Assembly (NCBI GenBank): GCA_009885795.1
Contig: VFKA01000076.1
Coordinates: 1-44,984, forward strand
Length of the DNA: 44,984 nucleotides
Reading direction: 5' to 3'
DNA from: Rhodospirillales bacterium
GTDB lineage: Bacteria; Pseudomonadota; Alphaproteobacteria; Dongiales; Dongiaceae
In this document: positions 10,026 through 44,984 of the stretch, in pieces
Layout: every line of letters starts with the position of its first letter
How positions within the stretch are numbered: the first letter of the stretch is position 1
Made by a program: the position numbers and the translations under genes
The notes under the pieces: model-generated
What the model was told of the DNA's origin: nothing
What the model saw: the letters and a program-made list of their open reading frames with translations, nothing else
The model's database searches: none

Positions 10026-10883
10026 TCAATCCCGGAGCAACTCGTTGATGGAAGTCTTCGAGCGCGTCTTTTCATCGACGCGTTTCACGATGACCGCGCA
10101 ATAGAGGCCGGGGCCCGGCGAGCCATCCGGCAAATTGCGTCCGGGCATGGTCCCGGACACGACCACGGAATAGGCCGGCACGCGCCCGTAATGCACCGCG
10201 CCGGTGGCGCGATCGACGATCTTGGTCGAGGCGCCGAGATAGACGCCCATGGAGAGGACCGAGCCTTCCTCCACGACCACACCCTCGGCCACCTCGGCGC
10301 GGGCGCCGATGAAGCAATTGTCCTCGATCACGACCGGGCCGGCCTGAAGCGGCTCCAGCACCCCGCCGATGCCGGCGCCGCCGGAGATGTGACAGTTCCC
10401 GCCGATTTGCGCGCACGATCCCACGGTTGCCCAGGTGTCGATCATGGTGCCGCGATCGACATAGGCGCCGACGTTGACGAAGCAGGGCATGAGGATGACG
10501 CCCGGCGCGACGTAGGCCGAGCGGCGCACCACGCATCCGGGCACGGCGCGAAATCCCGCTTCCTTGAACCGGCTTTCGTTCCAGCCCGCGAATTTCGACG
10601 GCACCTTGTCGTACCAGGCGGACTTGCCTTCGGCGCCGAAATCGCCGCCGCCGGGGATGGGCGATGAGTCGTTGAGCCGGAACGATAACAGCACCGCCTT
10701 CTTCAGCCATTGATGCGTGACCCAGGCGCCGCCCGCCTTCTCGGCCACGCGCAATTCGCCGCGATCCAAGGCATCGAGGGCGGCATCGACGGCGGCGCGG
10801 ACCTCGCCGCCGCTCGAGGGCGTCAGCCGGTCGCGCGTTTCCCACGCGGCGTCGATGATCGGTTGTATCCGTTCAGGTGTCAT
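10026..10883 (-). CDS. dapD: 2,3,4,5-tetrahydropyridine-2,6-dicarboxylate N-succinyltransferase
   Basis: Transfers succinyl from succinyl-CoA to tetrahydrodipicolinate, two steps before DapE in the succinylase branch of lysine synthesis. The 285-residue product has the left-handed beta-helix hexapeptide repeats typical of the family, from about residue 110 ([20 protein letters not shown]) through [20 protein letters not shown] to [10 protein letters not shown], with the family N-terminal helical domain before it. Length and termini match DapD throughout. It is immediately upstream of dapE. Confidence 0.96.
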
Positions 10884-10916
10884 GGGCCGCGACCATGGGC
10901 AAGGGAAGCCCGACTG

Positions 10917-11597
10917 TCAACGCGGCGCCGCCGCTTCCAGCCAGGCGACGAGATCGTCGGTCGTGTGATGGATGTGGGTGCTGTCGCCAACGGGCTGGGA
11001 CCATTCCTCGCCGGTCTCCACCAGCACGGTGGTCATGCCGAGCGCCGCCGCCGGCGCCAGGTTGCGCGGCAAGTCGTCGATCATCGCCGCCCTCGGCGCG
11101 TCGATCGCGTGGCGGGCGACGAGCGCATCATAGGTCGCGGGCTCGGGCTTCGGGATCCAGGCGGCCGCGCGGATGTCGAACACGTCCTCGAAATGACGAG
11201 CAACGCCCAGCCGGTTCATGACGTTGGCGGCATGGGCGACCGATCCGTTGGTGAAGATGAGTTTGCGTCCGCCCAGGCGGGCGAGCGCCGCGTCGAGCCG
11301 CGGGGATGGCTCGACGGGCGTAAGATCGATGGCGTGGACATAGTCGAGGAACTTCGCGGGATCGACGCCATGGCGCTGCATCAACCCGCTGAGCGTGGTG
11401 CCGTGTTCATGAAAGTACAGCTTCTGCAGCCGCCGCGCCTCGACGAGGTCGAGATTGAACTCCTCGGCGATGAACCGGCCGATGAGGCGGTCGACCTGAT
11501 CGAACAGGCGGCAAGACGCCGGATAGAGCGTGTTGTCGAGGTCGAACACCCAGGTCTCCGTCCGGGCGGCGAGGGCGGCGGGTGCGTTTGCGTCCAT
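10917..11597 (-). CDS. HAD-superfamily pyrimidine 5'-nucleotidase
   Basis: A 226-residue cytoplasmic HAD phosphatase of the SDT1/YjjG-like group. HAD motif I is FDLDNTLYP (nucleophile and acid Asp), motif II is FTNGS, the motif III lysine is in KPEPATYD, and motif IV is MIDDLPRN. The group dephosphorylates pyrimidine nucleotides. I start at the ATG at 11597 (MDANAPAALAART), because the longer frame needs a TTG at 11633. It is 33 bases upstream of dapD on the same strand, an arrangement found in other alphaproteobacteria, where it commonly sits between argB and dapD. Here argB is 6.4 kb away. Confidence 0.88.
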   Translation of the reverse strand: MDANAPAALAARTETWVFDLDNTLYPASCRLFDQVDRLIGRFIAEEFNLDLVEARRLQKLYFHEHGTTLSGLMQRHGVDPAKFLDYVHAIDLTPVEPSPRLDAALARLGGRKLIFTNGSVAHAANVMNRLGVARHFEDVFDIRAAAWIPKPEPATYDALVARHAIDAPRAAMIDDLPRNLAPAAALGMTTVLVETGEEWSQPVGDSTHIHHTTDDLVAWLEAAAPR

Positions 11598-11703
11598 GAC
11601 TGGGAAAGTGGCGGTTCGAGGCCCGGCTGGCAAGGAGTTAAGCCGTCCTTAAGGGGGGGTCTTGCACCTTCCGATCCTTGGTTCCGGGAACCCGAGACAT
11701 CCC

Positions 11704-13383
11704 ATGCGCCCCCAAGCGAAAGCGGCATCGACGAACTCATCCGGAGAGGCGGCGGCGGAGCGGTTGTTCGCTCCGGACGGTCCGCTTGCCTATTTCCATG
11801 GGCCGGCCGTGGCGGTAGGTCCAGGCGGGCACATTCTCGCCGGCAACGAACGGGCCGGACCGCTGATCGCGGCCATTCGATCCGCGTCATGCGAGGCGCT
11901 CGACGCGGCAATCGCCGCGGCGCTGGCGGGCGAGCCCGCGCGGCTCAATCCGGTGACGCTGGATTCCGGCGCGCGGATGCCGGCGCGCCCCGCCATCCAT
12001 GACATCGCGGTCATGCCGTTCGCCGAGGCCAATGGCGTGCTGGTGCTGGCGAGCGACGTGACCCTGGAGCGGACCTTGCACCACGCGCTGGTCGATTCGC
12101 GCCAGCGCTACAAGGATCTTGCCGAGACTTCGAGCGACTTCGTCTGGGAAGTCGGGCCGGACGGATGCTTCACCTTCGTGTCCCCCGACGGCGCGCTCGG
12201 CTATCGGCCCGACGCGCTCGTCGGCAAGGCGCCCGGCGCATTTACCGTGATCGCCGAGGGCGACGATCCCGACTATCCATTCAACGCAAGCGAACCCTTG
12301 GCCGCGGCCGAGACCTGGTTCCGCCGCGCCGATGGCGAGGCCGCCTGCCTCAGCGTCGATTGCCGGCCGCTCTTCGACCAAATGGGCACCTGGCGCGGCG
12401 CGCGCGGGCTCGCCCGCGACGTGACCGAGACGCGCGCGCTCGCGTCCGACCTTGCGCGGGCGCGGCATCGCGAAAGGCTGCTGGCCTATGTGCTGCACGC
12501 CATCCGCAACGAGGCCGAGCCGGAGAAGACGCTGGCGGTCGCCGTCGAAACGGCGGCACCGGCGCTGGCGGCGAATGGCGTACGGGTACTCCGCCACGGC
12601 CCGGACGGCGTCGAGGCGGTGGCGGGGGCCGAGGCGCCAGGCGGCGACGCCGCCATTCTCGAAGCCGTGGGCTCGGCAGGCACCGCCGACCTGACCGTAG
12701 CCGGCCATGCGCTGCTGGCGATTCCGACCCGACATCGGGGGCAAGCGAACGGCGTGTTGGCGGTGTGGCGCAACGGCGCCGACGCGGGCTGGAGCGAGGA
12801 TGACCGCTTTCTCATGGGCGAGCTCGCGGTCCAGCTTGGAGCCGTGCTGCAGCAGCTCGCCGACCGCGAGGCGCTGCGCACGCTGTCCGACAGCGACGGC
12901 CTCACCGGCCTCTTGAACCGGCGCGCCTTCGAAGCCGCCGTGACGCAGCGCCTGGCGAGCGCGGCAAGGGCGGGGCGAAGCGGCGTGCTGCTCTATGTCG
13001 ATCTCGACAACTTCAAGCTGGTGAACGACCGGCTGGGCCACGCGGCCGGCGACGAGGCGTTGAAGACCGTCGCGGCCATCCTCCGGCGCAGCGTCCGGCT
13101 GGGCGATCTCGTGGCGCGGCTCGGTGGCGATGAGTTCGCGCTCTGGCTCGACGATTTCGGGCAAAGCGACGCCGAAAGCAAAGTCGCGGAGTTGGCGCGC
13201 CAAGCCGAGGAATTGAAGCCTCTTTCGGCCGATGCCCGCCGGCCGCTCGGCTTTTCCATCGGTGTCACGCGAAGCGATCCGCGCGGCTCCGAGATCAAGA
13301 CCCTGCTACAAGCGGCCGATGCCGGCATGTACGGCGTGAAGCGCGCCCGCAAGGAAGCGGCGGCCAAGGGAGCGGCGCGATGA
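11704..13383 (+). CDS. PAS-GAF-like sensor diguanylate cyclase
   Basis: Makes cyclic di-GMP from GTP in response to an unknown cue. The 559-residue protein has no clear membrane segment. An N-terminal PAS-like region (about 25-125) is followed by a PAS domain (about 132-245, including SSDFVWEVGPDGCFTFVS), a GAF-like region (about 255-385) and a C-terminal GGDEF domain. The active site GGDEF is intact at 474-478, the DLDNFKLVND segment is present, and the inhibitory I-site RLGD is at 465-468, five residues before GGDEF, so product inhibition is expected. No EAL domain is present. Start is the ATG at 11704. The stop overlaps the DUF2336 gene's ATG (ATGA). Confidence 0.92.
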   Translation: MRPQAKAASTNSSGEAAAERLFAPDGPLAYFHGPAVAVGPGGHILAGNERAGPLIAAIRSASCEALDAAIAAALAGEPARLNPVTLDSGARMPARPAIHDIAVMPFAEANGVLVLASDVTLERTLHHALVDSRQRYKDLAETSSDFVWEVGPDGCFTFVSPDGALGYRPDALVGKAPGAFTVIAEGDDPDYPFNASEPLAAAETWFRRADGEAACLSVDCRPLFDQMGTWRGARGLARDVTETRALASDLARARHRERLLAYVLHAIRNEAEPEKTLAVAVETAAPALAANGVRVLRHGPDGVEAVAGAEAPGGDAAILEAVGSAGTADLTVAGHALLAIPTRHRGQANGVLAVWRNGADAGWSEDDRFLMGELAVQLGAVLQQLADREALRTLSDSDGLTGLLNRRAFEAAVTQRLASAARAGRSGVLLYVDLDNFKLVNDRLGHAAGDEALKTVAAILRRSVRLGDLVARLGGDEFALWLDDFGQSDAESKVAELARQAEELKPLSADARRPLGFSIGVTRSDPRGSEIKTLLQAADAGMYGVKRARKEAAAKGAAR

Positions 13384-24284: not shown

Positions 24285-24402
24285 TAATAACAATGTGTTA
24301 TGATTTTTTATCATTGCTTGATTGTTAAATCATTTCAATCTCATTTCTCGCTCAATGTTACCCCGTTGCGAACCGGCTCACCTGCCCCTCACTTCCTGGT
24401 GA

Positions 24403-25149
24403 ATGGCCGGGCGGACTCCCGGCGTGGTAAGAGCCTTCATGGCTATCCCCGCCTCCCTTCGCCGCCTGCTGCCGCTGATGCTCATCGGCCTCGGCTTGGC
24501 GCTGGTGATCGCCTTCGATCTCCACCGGTATCTCGCCTTCGACAGCTTGCGCCAGCACCGCGCCTGGCTGGCGGCCGAGGTCGAGGCGAACACCGTTCTC
24601 GTGGCGTTGGCGTACATGGCCGTCTATGTCGGTGTCGTCGCCCTCTCGGTGCCCGGCGCGGCGGCGCTGACGATTGCGGGCGGCGTCCTATTCGGCGCCT
24701 GGGTGGCGGCCGCGCTCGTGGTGGTGTCGGCGACCATTGGCGCCAGCCTGTTGTTCCTCGCGGCGCGGATGGGGCTTGGCGACCTCCTGCGCCGAAAAGC
24801 CGGGCCTTGGGTCGTTAAGCTCGAACGCGGGTTCAAGGAAAACGCCTTCAACTATCTGCTAACCTTGCGCCTGGTTCCGCTGTTTCCCTTCTTCATCGTC
24901 AATCTGGTGCCGGCGCTCCTGGGCGTCCGGCTGGACGTGTTCGTGCTGGCGACATTCATCGGCATCATTCCCGGCACCATCGTCTTCGCCAATGTCGGCG
25001 CCGGCCTCGCGCAGGTCTTGGAGAGCACGGAGGTGACGCCGGCCTCGATCCTGACGCCGGAGATCCTGGCGGCGCTGATCGGGCTTGGCCTTCTCGCACT
25101 CGTGCCGGTCGCCTACAAGGCGCTGCGGCGCCGGCGGGGCGAGGGCTAG
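24403..25149 (+). CDS. TVP38/TMEM64-family membrane protein
   Basis: A 248-residue integral membrane protein of the DedA/SNARE-associated (TVP38) group with about five or six hydrophobic segments. The conserved core is visible: ALSVPGAAALTIAGGVLFGA, the re-entrant LTLRLVPLFPFFIVNLVPAL, and FIGIIPGTIVFANVGAG. Family members move or flip lipids or ions, and in this subfamily are often fused to or paired with a flavin reductase. Start may be the ATG at 24403 or 24439. The latter gives a more typical N-terminus (MAIPASLRRLLPL). The stop is three bases before the flavoprotein ATG, so they form one transcript. Confidence 0.88.
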   Translation: MAGRTPGVVRAFMAIPASLRRLLPLMLIGLGLALVIAFDLHRYLAFDSLRQHRAWLAAEVEANTVLVALAYMAVYVGVVALSVPGAAALTIAGGVLFGAWVAAALVVVSATIGASLLFLAARMGLGDLLRRKAGPWVVKLERGFKENAFNYLLTLRLVPLFPFFIVNLVPALLGVRLDVFVLATFIGIIPGTIVFANVGAGLAQVLESTEVTPASILTPEILAALIGLGLLALVPVAYKALRRRRGEG

Positions 25150-25152
25150 GCG

Positions 25153-26577
25153 ATGGCGACGACGATGGAAGCCGACATCTGCGTCATCGGCGCCGGGTCG
25201 GGAGGCTTGAGCGTCGCCGCGGGCGCCGCGCGGCTCGGCGCCGCCACGATCCTCATCGAGGAATCGAAAATGGGCGGCGACTGCCTCAATGTCGGTTGCG
25301 TGCCATCGAAGGCGCTGCTGGCGGCGGCGCACGCGGCGGCGCACGGGCGAGCGGCGGCGGCGATGGGTGTGCGCTTCGGCGCGCCCGAGATCGATTTCGC
25401 GGCCGTGCGCGCCCACGTCCAAGGCGTCATCGCCGGGATCGCGCCGCATGATTCGGTCGAACGCTTCGAGGGGCTGGGTGTGCGCGTCATCAAGGCGCAT
25501 GCGCGCTTCGTCGATCCCCGCACGGTCGAGGCCGGCGACAATCTCGTGCGGGCGCGGAGATTCGTGATCGCGACCGGTTCCTCGGCCCTGGTGCCGCCGA
25601 TCCCCGGCCTCGACGCCGCACCCTATCTTACGAACGAGACCCTATGGGATCTCGACCGCCTGCCCGCGCGTCTCGTGGTGCTGGGCGGCGGCCCCATCGG
25701 GTGCGAGCTCGCGCAAGCCTTCGCCCGGTTTGGCACGCGCGTGACACTCGTCGAGATGCAGCGCCTGTTGCCGAAGGACGACGCGGAAGCGGTCGAGGCC
25801 GTGCGCGCCAGCCTCGTGGCGGACGGGATAGAGATTCATGACGCAAGCACGGCCGAACGGGTCGAGCGCGCGTCTGCCGGGATCGCCGTCCACGCCAACG
25901 GGCCGGCCGGGCCGTTGCGCCTCGAGGGCAGCCACCTGCTGATCGCCGCCGGAAGGCGCGCGAATTTGGCCGGGCTCGGGCTCGACGCGGCCGGGATCGC
26001 GGCCACGCCTTCGGGAATCACCGTCGATCGGCGGCTACGCACGTCCAATGCGCGCGTCTTCGCCATCGGCGACGCCATCGGCCCGCCGCAATTCACCCAC
26101 CTTGCCGGCTATCATGCCGGGATCGTCATCCGCAACGCCCTCTTCCGGCTGCCGGCCAAGGTGGATTTGCGCGCCCTGCCCTGGGTCACCTTCACCGACC
26201 CGGAACTGGCGCAAGTCGGGTTGACCGAGGAAGCGGCGCGCGCGAAGCAGGCCGATGTCCGCGTCATGCGCTGGCCGTTCGCGGACAACGACCGCGCCAG
26301 GACCGAACGGCGGACAAGCGGATTCGTGAAGGCGGTGACGGATGCGCGCGGGCGCATCCTTGGCGCCACCATCGTCGGCGCCGAGGCCGGCGAACTGATT
26401 CAACCCTGGGCGCTCGCCATGGCCAATAACTTGCGCATCGGCGCGATGGCGCAAGTCATCCTGCCCTACCCGACGCTGGGCGAGGCAAACAAGCGAACGG
26501 CGGGCGAGTTCTACACCGCCAGCCTCTTCAGCCCGCGCACGCGCTGGCTGGTGCGCCTGCTGGCACGGCTCAGTTAG
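25153..26577 (+). CDS. FAD-dependent pyridine nucleotide-disulfide oxidoreductase, MerA/Lpd-like
   Basis: A 474-residue flavoenzyme of the class I disulfide reductase family. FAD-binding GAGSGGLSVAAGAARLGA, the redox-active disulfide CLNVGC (about residues 45-50), NAD(P)-binding GGGPIGCELAQAF, and FAD motif AIGDAIG are all present. The usual C-terminal His-x4-Glu dyad of lipoamide dehydrogenase is replaced by YPTLGE, with Tyr at the His position, as in mercuric reductase. There is no MerA N-terminal heavy-metal domain and no C-terminal vicinal Cys pair, so mercury detoxification is not supported. It follows the TVP38 gene by three bases. In other proteobacteria the two are known as fused proteins. 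Confidence 0.9.
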   Translation: MATTMEADICVIGAGSGGLSVAAGAARLGAATILIEESKMGGDCLNVGCVPSKALLAAAHAAAHGRAAAAMGVRFGAPEIDFAAVRAHVQGVIAGIAPHDSVERFEGLGVRVIKAHARFVDPRTVEAGDNLVRARRFVIATGSSALVPPIPGLDAAPYLTNETLWDLDRLPARLVVLGGGPIGCELAQAFARFGTRVTLVEMQRLLPKDDAEAVEAVRASLVADGIEIHDASTAERVERASAGIAVHANGPAGPLRLEGSHLLIAAGRRANLAGLGLDAAGIAATPSGITVDRRLRTSNARVFAIGDAIGPPQFTHLAGYHAGIVIRNALFRLPAKVDLRALPWVTFTDPELAQVGLTEEAARAKQADVRVMRWPFADNDRARTERRTSGFVKAVTDARGRILGATIVGAEAGELIQPWALAMANNLRIGAMAQVILPYPTLGEANKRTAGEFYTASLFSPRTRWLVRLLARLS

Positions 26578-26580
26578 AGC

Positions 26581-28011
26581 ATGAGCGACGACCGCCCCCG
26601 CCTGCCCCCGCTCGGCCGCAGCCTGTCGGCGCGGCTGCTGATCCTCACGATCGTCTTCGTCATGCTGGCGGAGGTGCTGATCTACGCGCCGTCGATCGGG
26701 CGCTTCCGCCTCGACTATCTCGAAGACCGGATCGCGGCCGGGCATCTGGCGATCCTGGCGCTGCTGGCGACGCCCGACTACATGGTGGACGCGGCGCTCG
26801 AACGCGAATTGCTCGATCACGCGCGCGCCTACGTCATCGGCCTGAAGCGCCCGGACGGAATCAAGCTGATGCTGGGCGAGGGCGCGGTGCCGCCCATTGC
26901 CGCCCAGTTCGACCTTCGGGAACAGAGTTTCCTCGGCCTCATCGCCGAGGCCTTCGCCACCCTGGCCCAGCGCGAGAACCGGGTGCTGCGCGTCGTCGGC
27001 CCTAGCCCGCGCCATCCCCAGACCATCGTCGAGATCGTGTTCGACGAGGCGCCGATGCGCATGAGCATGATCGATTTCTCGAACCGCATCCTGGCGCTCT
27101 CCGTCGGCATCTCGCTGTTCGCGGCGGCGCTGGTGTTCTTGAGCCTGCAATGGCTGATCGTCCGGCCGATACGGCGCATGACCTTGCACATGACGGAATT
27201 CCGCGACCATCCCGAGGACGCGTCGCGGCCGATGCCACCGACAAGGCGAAGCGATGAGATCGGCGTGGCCCAGCGCGAGCTTGCGCGCATGCAGGAAGCG
27301 TTGCGCGCCGCCTTGCACCAGAAGGCGCATCTGGCGGCGCTCGGCACCGCCGTCGCCAAGATCAATCACGATTTGCGCAACACGCTGGCGGTGGCGCGGT
27401 TGGCATCCGACCGCCTGGCGCGGGTCGGCGACGCCTCCATCAAGGGCACGACGCCGCAATTGCTGGCCGCGATCGACCGCGCGGTCGATCTTGCCACCGC
27501 GGTGCTGGGGTTCACCGGCGAAGGACCGCCGGCGATCGAGCGCCGGCCCTTCGGCCTCGCCGAACTGATCGACGACGTGGGGGCGCAGATCACGGCGCGC
27601 CAGCCGGCCGCGGGCGAATGGATCAACGACGTCGATCCCGCCCTCATCGTCGAGGCGGACCGCGATCAACTCTATCGGGTCGTCGCCAATCTAGGCCAGA
27701 ACGCCTATCAGGCGGGGGCGACACGGGTGACGGTTGCCGCCCGCGCCGACGGCGGGCGCCTCGTCGTTGCCATCGGGGACAATGGCCCCGGCCTGCCCCC
27801 GAGGGCGCGGGAGAAACTGTTCCAGCCCTTCGCCGGTTCGGCCCGGGCGGGCGGAACCGGGCTTGGGCTCGCCATCGCCCGCGAGATCGCGCAATCGCAT
27901 GGCGGCGATCTCGTCCTTGTCGAAAGCGCCGCCTCCGGCACCGTGTTCGAGTTTCACTTGCCGCGGACTTTACCGGCAAAGCCCGTTGCGCGCGGGAGCG
28001 ACGCGGGCTAG
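26581..28011 (+). CDS. HAMP-domain sensor histidine kinase
   Basis: A 476-residue inner-membrane sensor kinase. TM1 (about 17-38) and TM2 (about 168-190) bracket a periplasmic sensor region of about 130 residues. A HAMP domain (about 190-245) follows, then a dimerisation helix with the phospho-accepting His in KINHDLRN (H263), and an ATPase domain with NLGQNAYQAGA (N box), DNGPG (G1) and GTGLGLAIA (G2). No response regulator gene is next to it. It begins three bases after the flavoprotein stop, so it is probably in the TVP38-flavoprotein transcript, which suggests it senses or controls the same envelope redox process (inference). Confidence 0.9.
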   Translation: MSDDRPRLPPLGRSLSARLLILTIVFVMLAEVLIYAPSIGRFRLDYLEDRIAAGHLAILALLATPDYMVDAALERELLDHARAYVIGLKRPDGIKLMLGEGAVPPIAAQFDLREQSFLGLIAEAFATLAQRENRVLRVVGPSPRHPQTIVEIVFDEAPMRMSMIDFSNRILALSVGISLFAAALVFLSLQWLIVRPIRRMTLHMTEFRDHPEDASRPMPPTRRSDEIGVAQRELARMQEALRAALHQKAHLAALGTAVAKINHDLRNTLAVARLASDRLARVGDASIKGTTPQLLAAIDRAVDLATAVLGFTGEGPPAIERRPFGLAELIDDVGAQITARQPAAGEWINDVDPALIVEADRDQLYRVVANLGQNAYQAGATRVTVAARADGGRLVVAIGDNGPGLPPRAREKLFQPFAGSARAGGTGLGLAIAREIAQSHGGDLVLVESAASGTVFEFHLPRTLPAKPVARGSDAG

Positions 28012-28038
28012 AAGCGGGACAACGAGGGGAAGCGAGCC

Positions 28039-28227
28039 ATGGCGGGGACCGATAAGTGGATTTGGGGCGGCGTGGTCGGCGTGATCGGCTTTGTCGGCCT
28101 GTTCGTCGCCTCGTACTCGGATGCGGGGACGCCGGGCTATGGGGGCGGCTTGGCGATCTCGACGTTGGCCATCCTTATCGTCTTCTTTCTCGTCAAGCGG
28201 GCCCTGGATCGCGCCGACGGCCGCTAA
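28039..28227 (+). CDS. Small two-helix membrane protein, function unknown
   Basis: A 62-residue protein with two hydrophobic helices (WGGVVGVIGFVGLFVASY and GLAISTLAILIVFFLV) joined by a Gly-rich loop and ended by a basic tail. It follows the kinase gene by 27 bases with GGGGAAGCGAGCC before the ATG, so it likely belongs to that transcript. Its last four bases overlap the 3' end of the convergent methyltransferase gene. I do not recognise a family. Confidence 0.7.
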   Translation: MAGTDKWIWGGVVGVIGFVGLFVASYSDAGTPGYGGGLAISTLAILIVFFLVKRALDRADGR

Positions 28228-29435
28228 TCCACCTGCAGCAGCAGCGATTTGAGATAGGCGGTCTCAGGCAGCATCGGATGGACCGGATGATCGGGTCCGG
28301 CCCCGGCGGTCTTGAGGATGCGGCCAGCGCGGCCGGCATCGTGGAGACCGCGCGCGACCTCGGCGGCGAAGGCGGCCGGCTCGACGGCATGCGAGCAGGA
28401 GCTGAGGAACAGAAAGCCGCCCGGGGTCACCTTGCCGGCGGCCAGGCGCGCGAGCTTGCGATAGGCACGCAGGCCCTGCGGCAAACCCTTCCGCGATTTC
28501 ACGAAGGCCGGCGGGTCGGCGATCACCAGATCGAAGCGTTCGTCGATCGACCCTAGATCGCGAAACACCTCGCCGCGACGAAACGCGCATGCCCCGGCGA
28601 CGCCGTTGAGGGCGGCGGCGCGTGAGCCCAGCGCCAGCGCCGCCTCCGATTCATCGATCGCGAGCACGGACGCGGCGCCGGCCATCGCCGCCATGACGGC
28701 GAATCCGCCGGTGTAGCAATAGAGATCGAGGACCTTGAGGCCGGCGGCGAGCTTAGCCACCATCGCGCGGTTGTCGCGCTGATCGTAGAACCAGCCGGTC
28801 TTTTGCCCTTGCCCGAGATCGGCGAGAAAGCGCACGCCGTTCTCCTCGATCTCGATCGGATGATCGAGCGATCCCTTGGCCACGCGCATGTGTTGGTCGA
28901 GCCCTTCCTGGGCGCGGGCCGGACTGTCATTGCGCAGCACGATAGTCGTGGGCGCGAAGAGAGCCTCGAGCGCCGCCAGAAGCGGCGCTTCGAGCCGATC
29001 CATGCCGGCGCTGTTCAGCTGCAGGACGAAGGCGTCGCCGAACCGGTCGATGACGAGGCCCGGCAGCCCGTCGGCTTCGGCGTGAACCAGGCGGTAATAG
29101 GGCCGGTCATGGAAGCGGTCGCGCAAGGCCGCGGCGGCGCTCAGGCGCTCCGCGAGGAAGGCGCGGTCGATCGCGACCGTGGCGGACGCCGTCAACAGAC
29201 GCGCCGCGATCAGGCTATGGGGATTAAAGAAGGCCTGTCCAAGAACCCGCTTGTCGGACGCGGCGAGGCGAACGATGGAGCCGGGCGGCAGGGCCTTGGC
29301 CGCCTGGTCCATCTCGATCTCGTTGGCATAGACCCAAGGGTGCCCGGCGAAGGCCCGCCGGTGTTCGCCGGAACGAAAAACGATGGCGGGCGGCGAATCG
29401 GCCGCGATCGGTTCGGTCACCAGGGATTGCGTCAC
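28224..29435 (-). CDS. rlmI: RlmI-type 23S rRNA (cytosine-5) methyltransferase
   Basis: A 403-residue SAM-dependent RNA methyltransferase. An N-terminal PUA domain (RSGEHRRAFAGHPWVYANEI) is followed by an EEHEE-like domain and a Rossmann methyltransferase with SAM motif LDLYCYTGGFAVMAAMAG, catalytic motif IADPPAFVKSRK and Cys-containing SSCSH. This is the layout of E. coli RlmI/YccW, which methylates 23S rRNA C1962. Substrate identity here is by family only. The start is the GTG at 29435 overlapping the L,D-transpeptidase stop (GTGA), which argues for coupling and against a longer upstream frame. Confidence 0.85.
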   Translation of the reverse strand: MTQSLVTEPIAADSPPAIVFRSGEHRRAFAGHPWVYANEIEMDQAAKALPPGSIVRLAASDKRVLGQAFFNPHSLIAARLLTASATVAIDRAFLAERLSAAAALRDRFHDRPYYRLVHAEADGLPGLVIDRFGDAFVLQLNSAGMDRLEAPLLAALEALFAPTTIVLRNDSPARAQEGLDQHMRVAKGSLDHPIEIEENGVRFLADLGQGQKTGWFYDQRDNRAMVAKLAAGLKVLDLYCYTGGFAVMAAMAGAASVLAIDESEAALALGSRAAALNGVAGACAFRRGEVFRDLGSIDERFDLVIADPPAFVKSRKGLPQGLRAYRKLARLAAGKVTPGGFLFLSSCSHAVEPAAFAAEVARGLHDAGRAGRILKTAGAGPDHPVHPMLPETAYLKSLLLQVD

Positions 29436-42176: not shown

Positions 42177-42225
42177 TGGCGCGCCCGGAGAGACTCGAAC
42201 TCCCAACCCCCAGATCCGTAGTCTG
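42177..42225 (-). other. 3' half of tRNA-Arg(ACG), probable attachment site (attL)
   Basis: On the minus strand the sequence runs from the anticodon arm (CAGACTACGGATCTG, loop CTACGGA, anticodon ACG) through a normal 5-base variable region, a T arm with GGGAG/CTCTC stems and TTCGAGT loop, the acceptor strand CGGGCGC, discriminator G and an encoded CCA (CCA at 42177-42179). The expected 5' half (acceptor GCGCCCG, D arm) is absent and unrelated AT-rich sequence follows from 42226. A tRNA 3' half beside integrase genes is the standard footprint of site-specific integration, so this is the displaced 3' end, with the reconstituted tRNA expected past the right edge. Confidence 0.85.
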
Positions 42226-42253
42226 TAGTATCTAACTATATTTCAATGAGTTA

Positions 42254-42285
42254 TTGACCAGTCTATCGTTTTTGTCTATCGTTTT
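42254..42285 (+). promoter_or_regulatory. Promoter of the recombinase genes overlapped by two 13-bp repeats
   Basis: TTGACC at 42254-42259 and TATCGT at 42277-42282 are 17 bases apart, a plausible sigma70 promoter 30 bases before the serine recombinase ATG. GTCTATCGTTTT occurs at 42261-42272 and again at 42274-42285, with the second copy covering the -10 box. Protein bound there would block transcription, so autoregulation by an element protein is likely. The repeats are between the tRNA fragment and the recombinase genes, where integrase arm sites are often found. Confidence 0.5.
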
Positions 42286-42311
42286 CCTGTCATTTTTGAT
42301 AGGAGAAATCG

Positions 42312-42899
42312 ATGAAACGAGCAGTCATTTACGCGCGAGTTTCCACCTCGTCCCAGACCGAAGAGAACCAGGTTCTCCAACTGCGCGAAACAGCAAAGCG
42401 CTTCGGTTGGAACATCATAGCTGAGCTTCGCGACCACGGGATTTCGGGAACCAAGAACGAGAATGACCGTCCAGGGTTCTTGAAACTCTGGAACATGGTT
42501 CGTCAGCGCAAGGTCGATGTGGTGATGGTCTGGGGGATAGATCGTCTCTCACGATCCTTGACCGATCTTCTCCGTTTCGTATCGGAAATCCAATCTTGCA
42601 GTTGCGATCTTTTCTCGCTGTCTCAAAACATCGACACGACCACACCCAGCGGCAAACTTTGCTTCAGCGTCTTTGGTGCTTTGGCTGAATACGAGAGTAG
42701 TTTGAGACGCGACCGAATCATGGCGGGTCTTGAGCGAGCCAAAGCGGAAGGCAAAAAACTGGGTCGTCCCAGTTGCATCAACGATGCAGTCGTCACTTCA
42801 GTTCGCCTTCTTCGTGAGAAGGGGTTGAGCGTTCACAATATTGCAAAGCAACTTCGAATCGGCGTTGGAACGACCCAAAAAATTCTGACCGCTGCTTGA
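42312..42899 (+). CDS. Serine recombinase (resolvase/invertase type)
   Basis: A 195-residue small serine recombinase. The catalytic domain holds the nucleophile S11 in YARVSTSSQ, the downstream WGIDRLSRSL arginines and the FGALAEYESSL region. A C-terminal helix-turn-helix follows (GLSVHNIAKQLRIGVGTTQK). It cuts and rejoins DNA through a phosphoserine and usually resolves or inverts DNA. GATAGGAG before the ATG at 42312 is a strong ribosome site. The tyrosine integrase gene follows nine bases after its stop, so the two are co-transcribed. Third-position codon choice is less GC-rich than the chromosome left of 42177. Confidence 0.95.
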   Translation: MKRAVIYARVSTSSQTEENQVLQLRETAKRFGWNIIAELRDHGISGTKNENDRPGFLKLWNMVRQRKVDVVMVWGIDRLSRSLTDLLRFVSEIQSCSCDLFSLSQNIDTTTPSGKLCFSVFGALAEYESSLRRDRIMAGLERAKAEGKKLGRPSCINDAVVTSVRLLREKGLSVHNIAKQLRIGVGTTQKILTAA

Positions 42900-42908
42900 G
42901 AAGGTATC

Positions 42909-44135
42909 ATGCAAATGTCGCGCTCGTCGCTTGACGGCAAAATCATCATTCTCCGTCGCGGGTTAGCGATCTATAAGACGCACGCTAGCAAATACTATTG
43001 GTGCCGAATATGGCTACCTTCGAAGAAGAAGCGTGTCGTCAGGACCACGAAGATGACCACGAGAGCCGAAGCAATTTCGGTCGCCGAGGAACAATTTTCC
43101 GCGATGGGTTCCCGAGGAAACCTCGCCGCGACTCCAAAAGAGAAAACCTTTGAACATTTCGCTGACAAGCTGATCGTCCATGAAAAGCACTTGGGTGAGA
43201 ACGGAAAGATCCACCCGAAAAGCTGGAGAAACGCGATCACATACCTTCGCACTGAAGGATGGGGTGTCGTCAGATATCTCGGATCAAAAGACGTCCAAGA
43301 AATCTCCACGAGAGACTACAACGCCTATATGGACGCTATAAGGGAGCGCAACCTCTCGTCGTCAACGCTAAACCACATCACCAACTATTTTCGCAAGGTC
43401 ATGGGATTAGCTAAACGCGAAGGGCTGATTGACGCTGTACCGTTGACCCCACGAGAGAAGCGGAAGGACAACCCACGAACATTTTTTCACTTTCACCCGC
43501 TGGTGACTCATGAGAACGACGAATGGGATCGACTGAAACGCGAAGCGCTCAAACTCGCGGACGACAAGATCGAAGTCCGTGGGGTTCCGATCACCGACGA
43601 ACTCTACGACTTCATCCTGTTCATGGTGCACTCGTTCCTTCGTCCTACAGACAGCGAAGTCTACGCGCTGACCCACCGTGATGTTTCCATCGCTGTCAAC
43701 CCCAAGCGGCTTATCATCAACATTCGTAAAGGGAAGACTGGACATCGCATCTCAAACACGATGCAAGCCGCTGTTTCAATCTACGAGCGGATCAAGCGTC
43801 GCTATCCCGATCACACGCAAGAGGATTACATTTTCTTTCCGACTTATCCCAATCGCGCCCATGCAAGAAGAGTTGTCGCGAATCAATTCAACGTTTTGTT
43901 GGAGCGCTGTGGTCTCAAAGATGACCGCAACAGTCCGAACCAACACACGGTCTATTCCCTACGGCACACCGCGATCTGCATGAGACTGATCCTGAGCGAA
44001 GGTCGAGTGAACATCTTCAACCTGGCGAAGAACGCTGGGACTAGCGTCGACCAGATCGAGCGGTTCTATGCGAAAAATCTGCCGCTGAGCGCGGAGATGG
44101 CGAGGAACTTGCAGAGTTTTGGTGAGAAGGAGTGA
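42909..44135 (+). CDS. Tyrosine recombinase/phage-type integrase
   Basis: A 408-residue integrase, likely the enzyme that joins the element to the tRNA-Arg gene. A basic N-terminal arm-type segment (about 10-50) is followed by a SAM-like core-binding domain (about 80-180) and the catalytic domain. R245 (SFLRPTDSE) is the first catalytic Arg, K274/K276 in RKGKTGHR is the catalytic Lys, R352 with H353 in YSLRHT is the second Arg box (with Tyr in place of the first His, seen in other integrases), and the nucleophile is Y387 in ERFYAKN. The ATG at 42909 lies ten bases after the serine recombinase stop. Confidence 0.93.
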   Translation: MQMSRSSLDGKIIILRRGLAIYKTHASKYYWCRIWLPSKKKRVVRTTKMTTRAEAISVAEEQFSAMGSRGNLAATPKEKTFEHFADKLIVHEKHLGENGKIHPKSWRNAITYLRTEGWGVVRYLGSKDVQEISTRDYNAYMDAIRERNLSSSTLNHITNYFRKVMGLAKREGLIDAVPLTPREKRKDNPRTFFHFHPLVTHENDEWDRLKREALKLADDKIEVRGVPITDELYDFILFMVHSFLRPTDSEVYALTHRDVSIAVNPKRLIINIRKGKTGHRISNTMQAAVSIYERIKRRYPDHTQEDYIFFPTYPNRAHARRVVANQFNVLLERCGLKDDRNSPNQHTVYSLRHTAICMRLILSEGRVNIFNLAKNAGTSVDQIERFYAKNLPLSAEMARNLQSFGEKE

Positions 44136-44304
44136 CGCCGCGACCCAGAACGCTCTCGTGAAGCTAAACGATTCCGTTCGCCAAGCGGCGCGATGTCTCT
44201 ATGATCGCGGAATGAGCGTTCGGTGCATCTCGAAGGAACTGGGAATCGGGATTGGAACGGTTTATGGGTGCTTGCATCCCCGACAGAACGCGCAGGCTGC
44301 ATAG
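44122..44304 (+). CDS. Small stand-alone helix-turn-helix protein, resolvase-tail-like
   Basis: A 60-residue product whose C-terminal half resembles the helix-turn-helix tail of the adjacent serine recombinase: GMSVRCISKELGIGIGTVYG against GLSVHNIAKQLRIGVGTTQK, with about 13 identical residues in 29. There is no catalytic domain, so it is a DNA-binding protein that may recognise the same sites. The start is uncertain. GTG at 44122 overlaps the integrase stop. A GTG at 44158 or TTG at 44119 is possible. Excisionase, repressor or recombination directionality factor are possible roles, all inference. Confidence 0.55.
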   Translation: MRRSDAATQNALVKLNDSVRQAARCLYDRGMSVRCISKELGIGIGTVYGCLHPRQNAQAA

Positions 44305-44428
44305 GATCTCTCAGTCCTATTGATTCAGCCAGGGTTCGTTACCTTTCAAATCGTCACAAACCGCCATTAACGAAAAGACTTGTTCAGCCCGCTGGCTGCC
44401 AAAATAGCAACATTGTCCTGAAGTTCGA

Positions 44429-44984
44429 TCATGACGCCTTCTCCGATTTTCCCCCGCTCCAAACAAATCCCAGGTCGTCCAATCGGCGTCGCCGATCTTT
44501 CGGGAGCTTGGCTTCGCCTTGACGTTGACCACTCACCCATCGACCAAGACGAAAACCATTTTCCGAATATCCCGCTGGAACGAGACAATGCCCATCACGC
44601 TCCTTGTAGGATTTCAGATGAGCAAAACCCTTCTCCCATTGCTGTTCAAGCACCTCCCAATCAAATCCCAAATCATCCAGTCTGCGTCGGCGATCTTTCG
44701 AGAGCTTGTCTTTGTTTCGGCGTTGAACAGACACCCATTGACCAAGACGAAAACCATGTTCCGAATATCTTTGCGGAACGCGACAATGCCCCTCTCGGTC
44801 CCTGTAGGCTTTTAGAAGAGCAAAGCCTTCTTCCCATTGCTGTTCAAGCGGATCCGAAACAAATCCCAGGTCGTCCAATCGGCGTCGCCGATCTTTCGGG
44901 AGCTTGGCTTCGCCTTGACGTTGACCACTCACCCATATGCCAAGACGAAAACCATTTTCCGAATATCCTCTCGGAACGCGACAA
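44429..44984 (-). CDS. Tandem helicase-associated (HA) repeat protein, 5' end beyond right edge
   Basis: At least 185 residues of a protein made of repeats of about 66 residues, reading leftward from beyond the window to a TGA at 44429. Each unit follows the helicase-associated domain pattern: WEEGFALLKAYRDREGHCRV, then P-x2-YSENGFRLG-WVSxQR, then KLSKDRRRRLDDLGF. HA domains are small helical units with conserved Trp and are found in tandem, often after helicases, and are thought to bind nucleic acid. No helicase is seen in the window, but the N-terminal part is missing. Two units are nearly identical at DNA level and a more divergent unit lies between them. Confidence 0.85.
   Translation of the reverse strand, partial: CRVPRGYSENGFRLGIWVSGQRQGEAKLPKDRRRRLDDLGFVSDPLEQQWEEGFALLKAYRDREGHCRVPQRYSEHGFRLGQWVSVQRRNKDKLSKDRRRRLDDLGFDWEVLEQQWEKGFAHLKSYKERDGHCLVPAGYSENGFRLGRWVSGQRQGEAKLPKDRRRRLDDLGFVWSGGKSEKAS
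44461..44540. repeat. Direct repeat, copy 1, inside the HA-repeat gene
   Basis: 80 bases identical to 44857-44936, 396 bases apart (132 codons, two repeat units). The similarity continues for another 40 bases with few differences. The intervening unit (about 44659-44856) is more diverged, giving an A-B-A order that points to recent recombination between units. Confidence 0.9.
44857..44936. repeat. Direct repeat, copy 2, inside the HA-repeat gene
   Basis: The second copy of the 80-base identical segment. Its presence within a coding region at codon-preserving spacing marks it as a unit of the protein repeat rather than a mobile insertion. Confidence 0.9.

Follow-up and report, generated by a model that had tools for sequence, protein, structure and literature searches.

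A probable genomic island in a tRNA-Arg(ACG) gene of a Rhodospirillales bacterium, with a lambda-like integrase, a neighboring small serine recombinase and restriction-like cargo

The right end of a 44,984-nucleotide contig from a Rhodospirillales bacterium (VFKA01000076.1, analyzed over its full length and called the window here) holds the 3' part of a tRNA-Arg(ACG) gene, followed by candidate attachment (att) signals, a small serine recombinase gene, a tyrosine recombinase (integrase) gene, a short helix-turn-helix frame and a truncated restriction-type gene (Table 1). Together with DNA from a second contig of the same genome, these features very likely represent a genomic island, about 10.3 kb long and integrated in tRNA-Arg(ACG), with a lambda-like integrase acting at a core in the anticodon arm and with restriction-like cargo. 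Positions are those of the window, which is the entire contig C97; the source genome comprises 3.46 Mb in 103 contigs, C83, C93 and C8 are other contigs of it, L-numbers denote fetched loci, and G407:C62 is a contig of a relative.

The initial annotation described a 3' half of tRNA-Arg(ACG) that ends at 42225 and gives way to AT-richer DNA with two recombinase genes, and this description is confirmed by an exact repeat, a step in G+C content and Pfam. ARAGORN detected no complete tRNA in the window. In a search of the source genome the 49-bp fragment recurs at C83:4821-4869 (49/49 bases, E = 7.6e-18), which is its sole other match and forms part of an intact tRNA-Arg(ACG) at C83:4821-4897 on the minus strand. 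The identity is bounded exactly by the encoded CCA on one side; on the other it takes in four of the five anticodon-stem bases of the 5' strand, beyond which the first bases differ (TAG versus GTG). G+C content falls from 0.668 (window 1-42176) to 0.511 (42226-44984) at the fragment; on C83, where 4.8 kb of AT-richer DNA precedes the intact tRNA, it rises from 0.506 to 0.644 at that gene. We take C83:1-4820 as the other end of the element. The rebuilt tRNA-Arg that had been expected at that end was therefore located: its 3' 49 bases equal the fragment and element-like DNA lies 3' of it, on a contig that the assembly leaves unjoined to the window. By the standards applied to tRNA islands in Islander, an intact tRNA gene and a 3' fragment of the same orientation form the two ends (both on the minus strand, the fragment lying 3' of the tRNA if the contigs join as proposed), and a tyrosine integrase gene lies within the interval (42909-44135). 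Their placement on one replicon at a plausible distance would follow from the link between the two contigs, which is made solely via the halves of one gene type.

This linking gene encodes an HA-repeat restriction-type protein and is cut both at the window end, where the C-terminal part remains, and at the start of C83, where the N-terminal part remains in the right polarity. With one gene type cut by both contig edges, the window and C83 would carry opposite ends of the same element. Another copy of this gene, 3405 bp at full length, spans C8 and C93 through an exact 109-bp overlap (C8:1-589 plus C93:1-2925; loci L146 and L008) and lies outside the tRNA element, amid genes that read as chromosomal. 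Its N-terminus falls in C8:432-648, which shares 96% identity with C83:1-217. Since this copy shows the missing part – the window holds 556 bp and C83 158 bp, so that about 2.7 kb is unseen – the element would measure about 10.3 kb, with about 2.7 kb of it unassembled. From this comparison we infer the join, and C97 and C83 very probably carry the two ends of a single ~10.3-kb element. Homology between the element and the second copy ends about 60-90 bp past the restriction gene on either side, and judged from these stops it looks as if the gene had moved as a unit.

Table 1. Features at the left end of the putative element, with the right arm pair on C83
Feature	Position	Strand	Basis or remark
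tRNA-Arg(ACG) 3' part, CCA to anticodon stem; displaced fragment, left att	42177..42225	-	49/49 identity, C83:4821-4869
IHF-like site TTTCAATGAGTTA	42241..42253	+	8/9 fixed positions of consensus WATCAANNNNTTR; offset from tRNA T-arm shared with relatives
Arm-type repeat 1 GTCTATCGT	42261..42269	+	offset equals that of the GTTTATAAC-like repeats of relatives
Arm-type repeat 2 GTCTATCGT	42274..42282	+	13 bp past repeat 1
Small serine recombinase, 195 amino acids, resolvase/invertase type, C-terminal helix-turn-helix	42312..42899	+	Pfam Resolvase, PHROG, solved structures
Tyrosine recombinase (integrase), 408 amino acids, predicted N-terminal arm-binding-like domain	42909..44135	+	Pfam, AlphaFold2, lambda Int match
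Small helix-turn-helix frame, 48 amino acids from GTG (start by eye)	44157..44304	+	resembles serine recombinase C-terminal end
Helicase/HA-repeat restriction-type protein, C-terminal part, cut by contig end	44429..44984	-	Pfam HA E 2.3e-54; N-terminus of this gene type at C83:1-158 (-)
Right arm pair GTCTATCAC	C83:4739 and C83:4749		spacing 10; partner of left pair

The integrase matches Pfam Phage_integrase at E = 9e-6 with 26.0 bits, below the cut-off of 27.1. For its AlphaFold2 model (25-row alignment; mean predicted local distance difference test score, pLDDT, 88.2), the best structural match is full-length lambda integrase (Z 18.5, root-mean-square deviation 5.7, 323 residues aligned over model positions 7-396). 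The N-terminal domain takes part in this match, because a lambda Int fragment without that domain (75-356) aligns to the model over 268 residues. The tyrosine recombinase is thus predicted to fold like lambda integrase, N-terminal domain included, and R245, K276, R352 and Y387 are invariant in 25/25 aligned rows. No record in the phage collection matches the integrase; in IMG/VR 36 stretches fit a pattern and none was confirmed, and five plasmid records gave partial matches below 60% identity. Matches at E ≤ 0.001 occur in 29 of 385 genomes of the class, but identity approaches 47-48% at no more than three places, which belong to two genomes.

Candidate signals for such an enzyme lie on both sides of the core. 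In relatives, two direct repeats of GTTTATAAC stand 13 bp apart at a fixed distance from the tRNA T-arm, and at the two fixed positions both repeats score at least 6/9 in 15 of 21 loci (shuffle mean 0.01, maximum 2). The right pair, 10 bp apart, is found at -80 to -83 from the restored tRNA in all nine elements with scores of 13-18 out of 18; among 1000 shuffles, at most 2/9 score 13 and at most 4/9 coincide in place. Candidate sites for integration host factor (IHF) were scored against the consensus WATCAANNNNTTR, with every offset allowed in data and shuffles and with L086 and L117 dropped as near copies, which left 19 loci. At one offset on the left, 16 of these 19 score at least 7/9 and 14 at least 8/9 (shuffles, each at its best offset, at most 4 and 2). 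The right side has a minus-strand site, placed within three bases, that scores at least 7/9 in eight of nine elements (shuffles at most 4), the site of the present element scoring 7/9. By sequence and position, putative arm repeats on both core sides and IHF-like sites make up a lambda-type arrangement, and the predicted fold, with residue 7 as its first aligned residue, supplies a putative N-terminal arm-binding domain. Because repeats, IHF-like sites and integrase fold come together, a lambda-type system acting on the anticodon arm is indicated.

One genome per species (84,980) was scanned with an alignment of three integrases. This search uncovered 47 loci, mostly labeled alphaproteobacterial; three are labeled only Proteobacteria, and the labels of another five point elsewhere (L093 and L112 Flavobacteriaceae, L109 a beta-proteobacterium, L116 Dehalococcoidia, L122 Oxalobacteraceae). 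An integrase tree of 34 rows, rooted by midpoint for drawing, combines the window with 30 of the 47 loci and with three integrases that other searches had provided; the 17 loci not included are for the most part partial or distant. Twenty-eight rows, including the window, form one clade, with L093/L117 and L086/L087 as near-copy rows, and 25 of the 28 adjoin a tRNA half cut in the anticodon arm. The integrase lies just past an opposite-strand tRNA 3' part with its T-arm in 23 members (L083 and L099 read by eye), and the tRNA 3' part of L098 is cut by the contig end. Where ARAGORN recognizes the restored gene, it is a tRNA for Arg, Ala, Asn, Lys or Thr; by eye, Gly and Met tRNAs are targets as well. 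For six relatives, direct repeats together with a restored tRNA at the right end mark out an element of 4.7-16.5 kb. In Bauldia (17.3 kb) and Hyphomicrobium (17.5 kb) the two tRNA copies differ yet are identical over 18 and 19 bp in the anticodon arm region (by eye), which maps the crossover to that region. In L105 and L106, which are more distant, the integrase directly follows an intact tRNA on the same strand, so that the window clade has its integrase on the other side of the core. As read from sequence and layout, this is a coherent family of putative tRNA islands, mostly alphaproteobacterial. G407:C62 adjoins a tRNA 5' half, which reads as tRNA-Gln (L135 3750-3820), and this integrase type may therefore insert in either orientation.

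The serine recombinase matches Pfam Resolvase (E = 3.1e-42) and a PHROG for DNA invertase (E = 1.3e-49), with DNA invertases and gamma-delta resolvase among its matches to solved structures. No res-like site was apparent by eye in the 86 bp upstream. The gene stands directly before the integrase in seven of the 28 clade members: the window, L081, L082, L085, L070, G407:C62 and, truncated, L101. The two frames are separated by 9 bp in the window and overlap by four bases in L069 (on a contig shared with L085) and by one base in G407:C62; because they nearly abut or overlap, they are probably co-translated, and the serine recombinase apparently sits in an operon with the integrase. T-arm and integrase lie 694-735 bp apart in the four loci measured with the serine recombinase versus 117-154 bp in 17 without it, and where the gene is present the att signals stay on the tRNA side. 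A single late gain is not supported, as the tree needs three label changes and the carriers branch early; the gene may be ancestral to the clade and later lost, to judge from its distribution. A second tyrosine recombinase of 188-221 amino acids occurs in six of seven delimited elements without the serine recombinase (the exception being Hyphomicrobium) and is absent from Bauldia and from the visible part of the present element (~2.7 kb unseen), both of which have the serine recombinase. This pattern hints that the two enzymes share a resolver role, in numbers too small to support more; the idea that the short tyrosine recombinase replaces the serine one was set aside, with too few elements (seven without, two with) to count.

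By sequence the cargo resembles antiviral restriction genes: one protein combines nuclease, helicase and HA-repeat parts, and another is of the MrcB_N/NOV_C kind. The full-length Bauldia homolog of the restriction gene has Mrr nuclease, ResIII/DEAD helicase and HA domains, and the best PADLOC matches of this homolog and of the C93 copy are restriction enzymes. Toward the tRNA, C83 encodes a 335-residue protein without match, the MrcB_N/NOV_C protein, a 239-residue protein without match and small frames, and it carries two arm repeats. Among the visible element proteins tested against Pfam and PHROGs there are no phage structural or packaging genes, several proteins having no match at all and ~2.7 kb being unseen; the visible proteins tested include no relaxase or type IV secretion gene, the ~2.7-kb gap being judged too small for a type IV secretion system, and, with the same ~2.7 kb unseen, no primer-independent B-family DNA polymerase. 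The earlier remark that the element starts without the usual modules of a phage or an integrative and conjugative element is in keeping with this absence of structural and conjugation genes among the visible proteins tested. The 239-residue protein (C83:3167-3886) resembles, by eye, HUH replication proteins of relatives in its motifs, a tentative lead for which profile comparison gave only 4.1% probability (E = 0.01); its single-sequence fold is unusable (mean pLDDT 34.4), and it has no homolog in plasmids, phages or the 385 class genomes other than its own. A Bauldia protein with a C-terminal HUH-like motif by eye is likewise a tentative lead (0.5% probability). A frame similar to the helix-turn-helix frame of the window lies just past the integrase in the sister element L081 (about 11250-11430), and the window's frame is possibly an excision factor or a remnant.

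Among 17 genomes of the order, the integrase is found in its own genome only, whereas the tRNA-Arg sequence is matched in all 17, at full length in 15 of the 16 others (82-99% identity). In four fetched relatives ARAGORN identifies the locus as tRNA-Arg(ACG), and homologs of the right-flank genes adjoin it in each. Genes at 24.4-29.4 kb of the window adjoin a homolog of the gene at 16.4-18.6 kb of C83, which reads as ggt, in two relatives out of the three inspected; since window and C83 genes are neighbors there, the region has been rearranged, apparently by inversion. Gene order relative to L075 and L078 suggests this inversion beside the tRNA-Arg locus (window 24400-29400; C83/L007 16300-18600).

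In the mechanism we propose, the catalytic part of the integrase would carry out recombination between the core, in the anticodon arm of the tRNA gene, and its identical counterpart on a circular element, while the N-terminal domain presumably holds the paired arm repeats on either side of the core and IHF probably bends the DNA between core and arms. Integration would displace the old tRNA 3' half, now window 42177-42225, and the element's own 3' half (C83:4821-4869) would rebuild the tRNA gene at the other end. The element may in turn excise as a circle and express active cargo. For the serine recombinase, our guess is that it most likely acts on dimeric or multimeric forms of the circle, excised or replicating, and resolves them.

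Several observations weigh against an intact island of this kind. The window end and the C83 start are unjoined in the assembly, and the 2.7 kb given for the gap was estimated by comparison with the second gene copy. The comparison with relatives lacking the element, which the initial annotation had called for, held only in part: tRNA-Arg(ACG) and the right flank are conserved in all four loci, but a clean empty site, sought in each of them, could not be shown because the left flank is rearranged relative to these relatives and the contigs are unjoined. The integrase has Tyr349-x-x-Arg352 in place of HxxR and Thr378 in place of His/Trp, the usual integrase motif residues. Three of the 28 clade members show no tRNA half (L070, L101 and the second Hyphomicrobium copy). 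The element's own left repeats, GTCTATCGT, score only 5/9 and 5/9, though placed exactly as in relatives; those of L084 score 5/9 and 7/9, L081, L082 and L085 carry related repeats with at least one shifted by one base, and L107 has no recognizable left repeats. The right IHF-like site reaches 8/9 in only four of nine elements (shuffles at most 2), and the shuffle controls for repeats and IHF-like sites ignore kinship.

Some of these points would also suit a dead remnant, an element once bounded by both tRNA pieces and later split by rearrangement, such that C97 and C83 are no longer neighbors. The unjoined contigs and the altered gene order around tRNA-Arg, with its apparent inversion, fit that history, and the second restriction-gene copy could confuse the link between the contigs; both att copies, both arm pairs and both recombinase frames are nevertheless intact, and the two partial restriction genes face each other, which makes a remnant improbable. 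A prophage, phage satellite or conjugative element whose left end lies in the window and whose structural or transfer genes are hidden in the gap is, in our view, very improbable. All three typically have tyrosine integrases at tRNA genes and ~2.7 kb is unseen, but the restriction gene accounts for the gap, the integrase is unmatched in the phage collection with no IMG/VR contig confirmed, and Pfam and PHROGs reveal no structural or transfer gene among the tested proteins, several of which lack any match. Least probable of all is that the element is integrated by the serine recombinase rather than by the tyrosine recombinase: the gene of the serine enzyme is nearest the att site (42312) and lies 9 bp before the other, but it is of the small resolvase/invertase type and is missing from 21 of the 28 clade members. 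Because 20 of those 21 keep the tRNA layout, with the tRNA half retained, the serine recombinase would not be the integrating enzyme.

An integrated island with a lambda-like tyrosine integrase is in itself an ordinary event, and tRNA islands as a kind are very well known; what is less ordinary here is the small serine recombinase between insertion site and integrase. Islander counts 2083 islands with an anticodon-centered site (PMC4383910). Like the islands outlined there, the present element has a restored tRNA at one end, a displaced 3' fragment at the other, a tyrosine integrase between them and an anticodon-arm crossover; it differs in its serine recombinase gene between att site and integrase and perhaps in the place of the integrase, which lies beside the displaced fragment and away from the restored tRNA. 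With lambda it shares the predicted Int fold with its N-terminal domain, paired repeats on both core sides and IHF-like sites between core and repeats, but differs in having a tRNA anticodon arm as its core, about 15% integrase identity, YxxR for HxxR, no phage genes seen and no Xis identified. The serine recombinase resembles Tn3/gamma-delta resolvases and DNA invertases in domain content and length, unlike which it is encoded directly before a tRNA-targeting tyrosine integrase. Tycheposons, defined by a core gene set from Prochlorococcus elements (PMC10872708), and pipolins are likewise tyrosine recombinase elements at tRNA genes, and a Thalassobacter relative of the present element has a DNA_pol_B_2 protein; in contrast, the visible parts of the window's element contain no polymerase. 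In the literature consulted, including PMC4383910, PMC10872708 and PMC8371274, we found no name or description for this integrase family or for such a serine-tyrosine pair, which does not prove absence from print.

With many tRNA targets, one attP plan and fixed repeat spacing, the family offers a natural series for how lambda-type integrases switch tRNA targets. It also provides a testable case of two unrelated recombinases in one apparent operon, and one more instance of a small tRNA island with restriction-like genes. A more far-reaching idea, which we regard as speculative and rather unlikely, is that these are a distinct, mainly alphaproteobacterial family of small integrative elements. 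In it, serine recombinase and lambda-type integrase would be coupled in translation as a single module that works on a fixed lambda-like attP, and the integrase would depend on the serine enzyme, or in members without it on the short tyrosine recombinase, as an obligatory resolver or directionality partner.

Further observations concern individual relatives. Replication proteins of the REP_ORF2-G2P type are encoded by L095 (11394-11831), L089 (11312-11776) and L087 (4446-4973), above the Pfam cut-off only in L095, and their presence suggests that some small relatives may replicate as circles. The tRNA-Asn island of Thalassobacter stenotrophicus (L133) encodes the DNA_pol_B_2 protein, of 900 amino acids (10409-13111), together with frames reading as a type I restriction set, and is possibly linked to polymerase-encoding elements. 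L093, a metagenome-assembled genome labeled Flavobacteriaceae, and L117, one from Rhodobacteraceae, have near-identical integrases and att regions, and the label of L093 may be a binning error. In the tRNA-Lys island of Rhodosalinus sediminis (L102 4914-15764), the integrase gene is split by an insert of ~4.3 kb.

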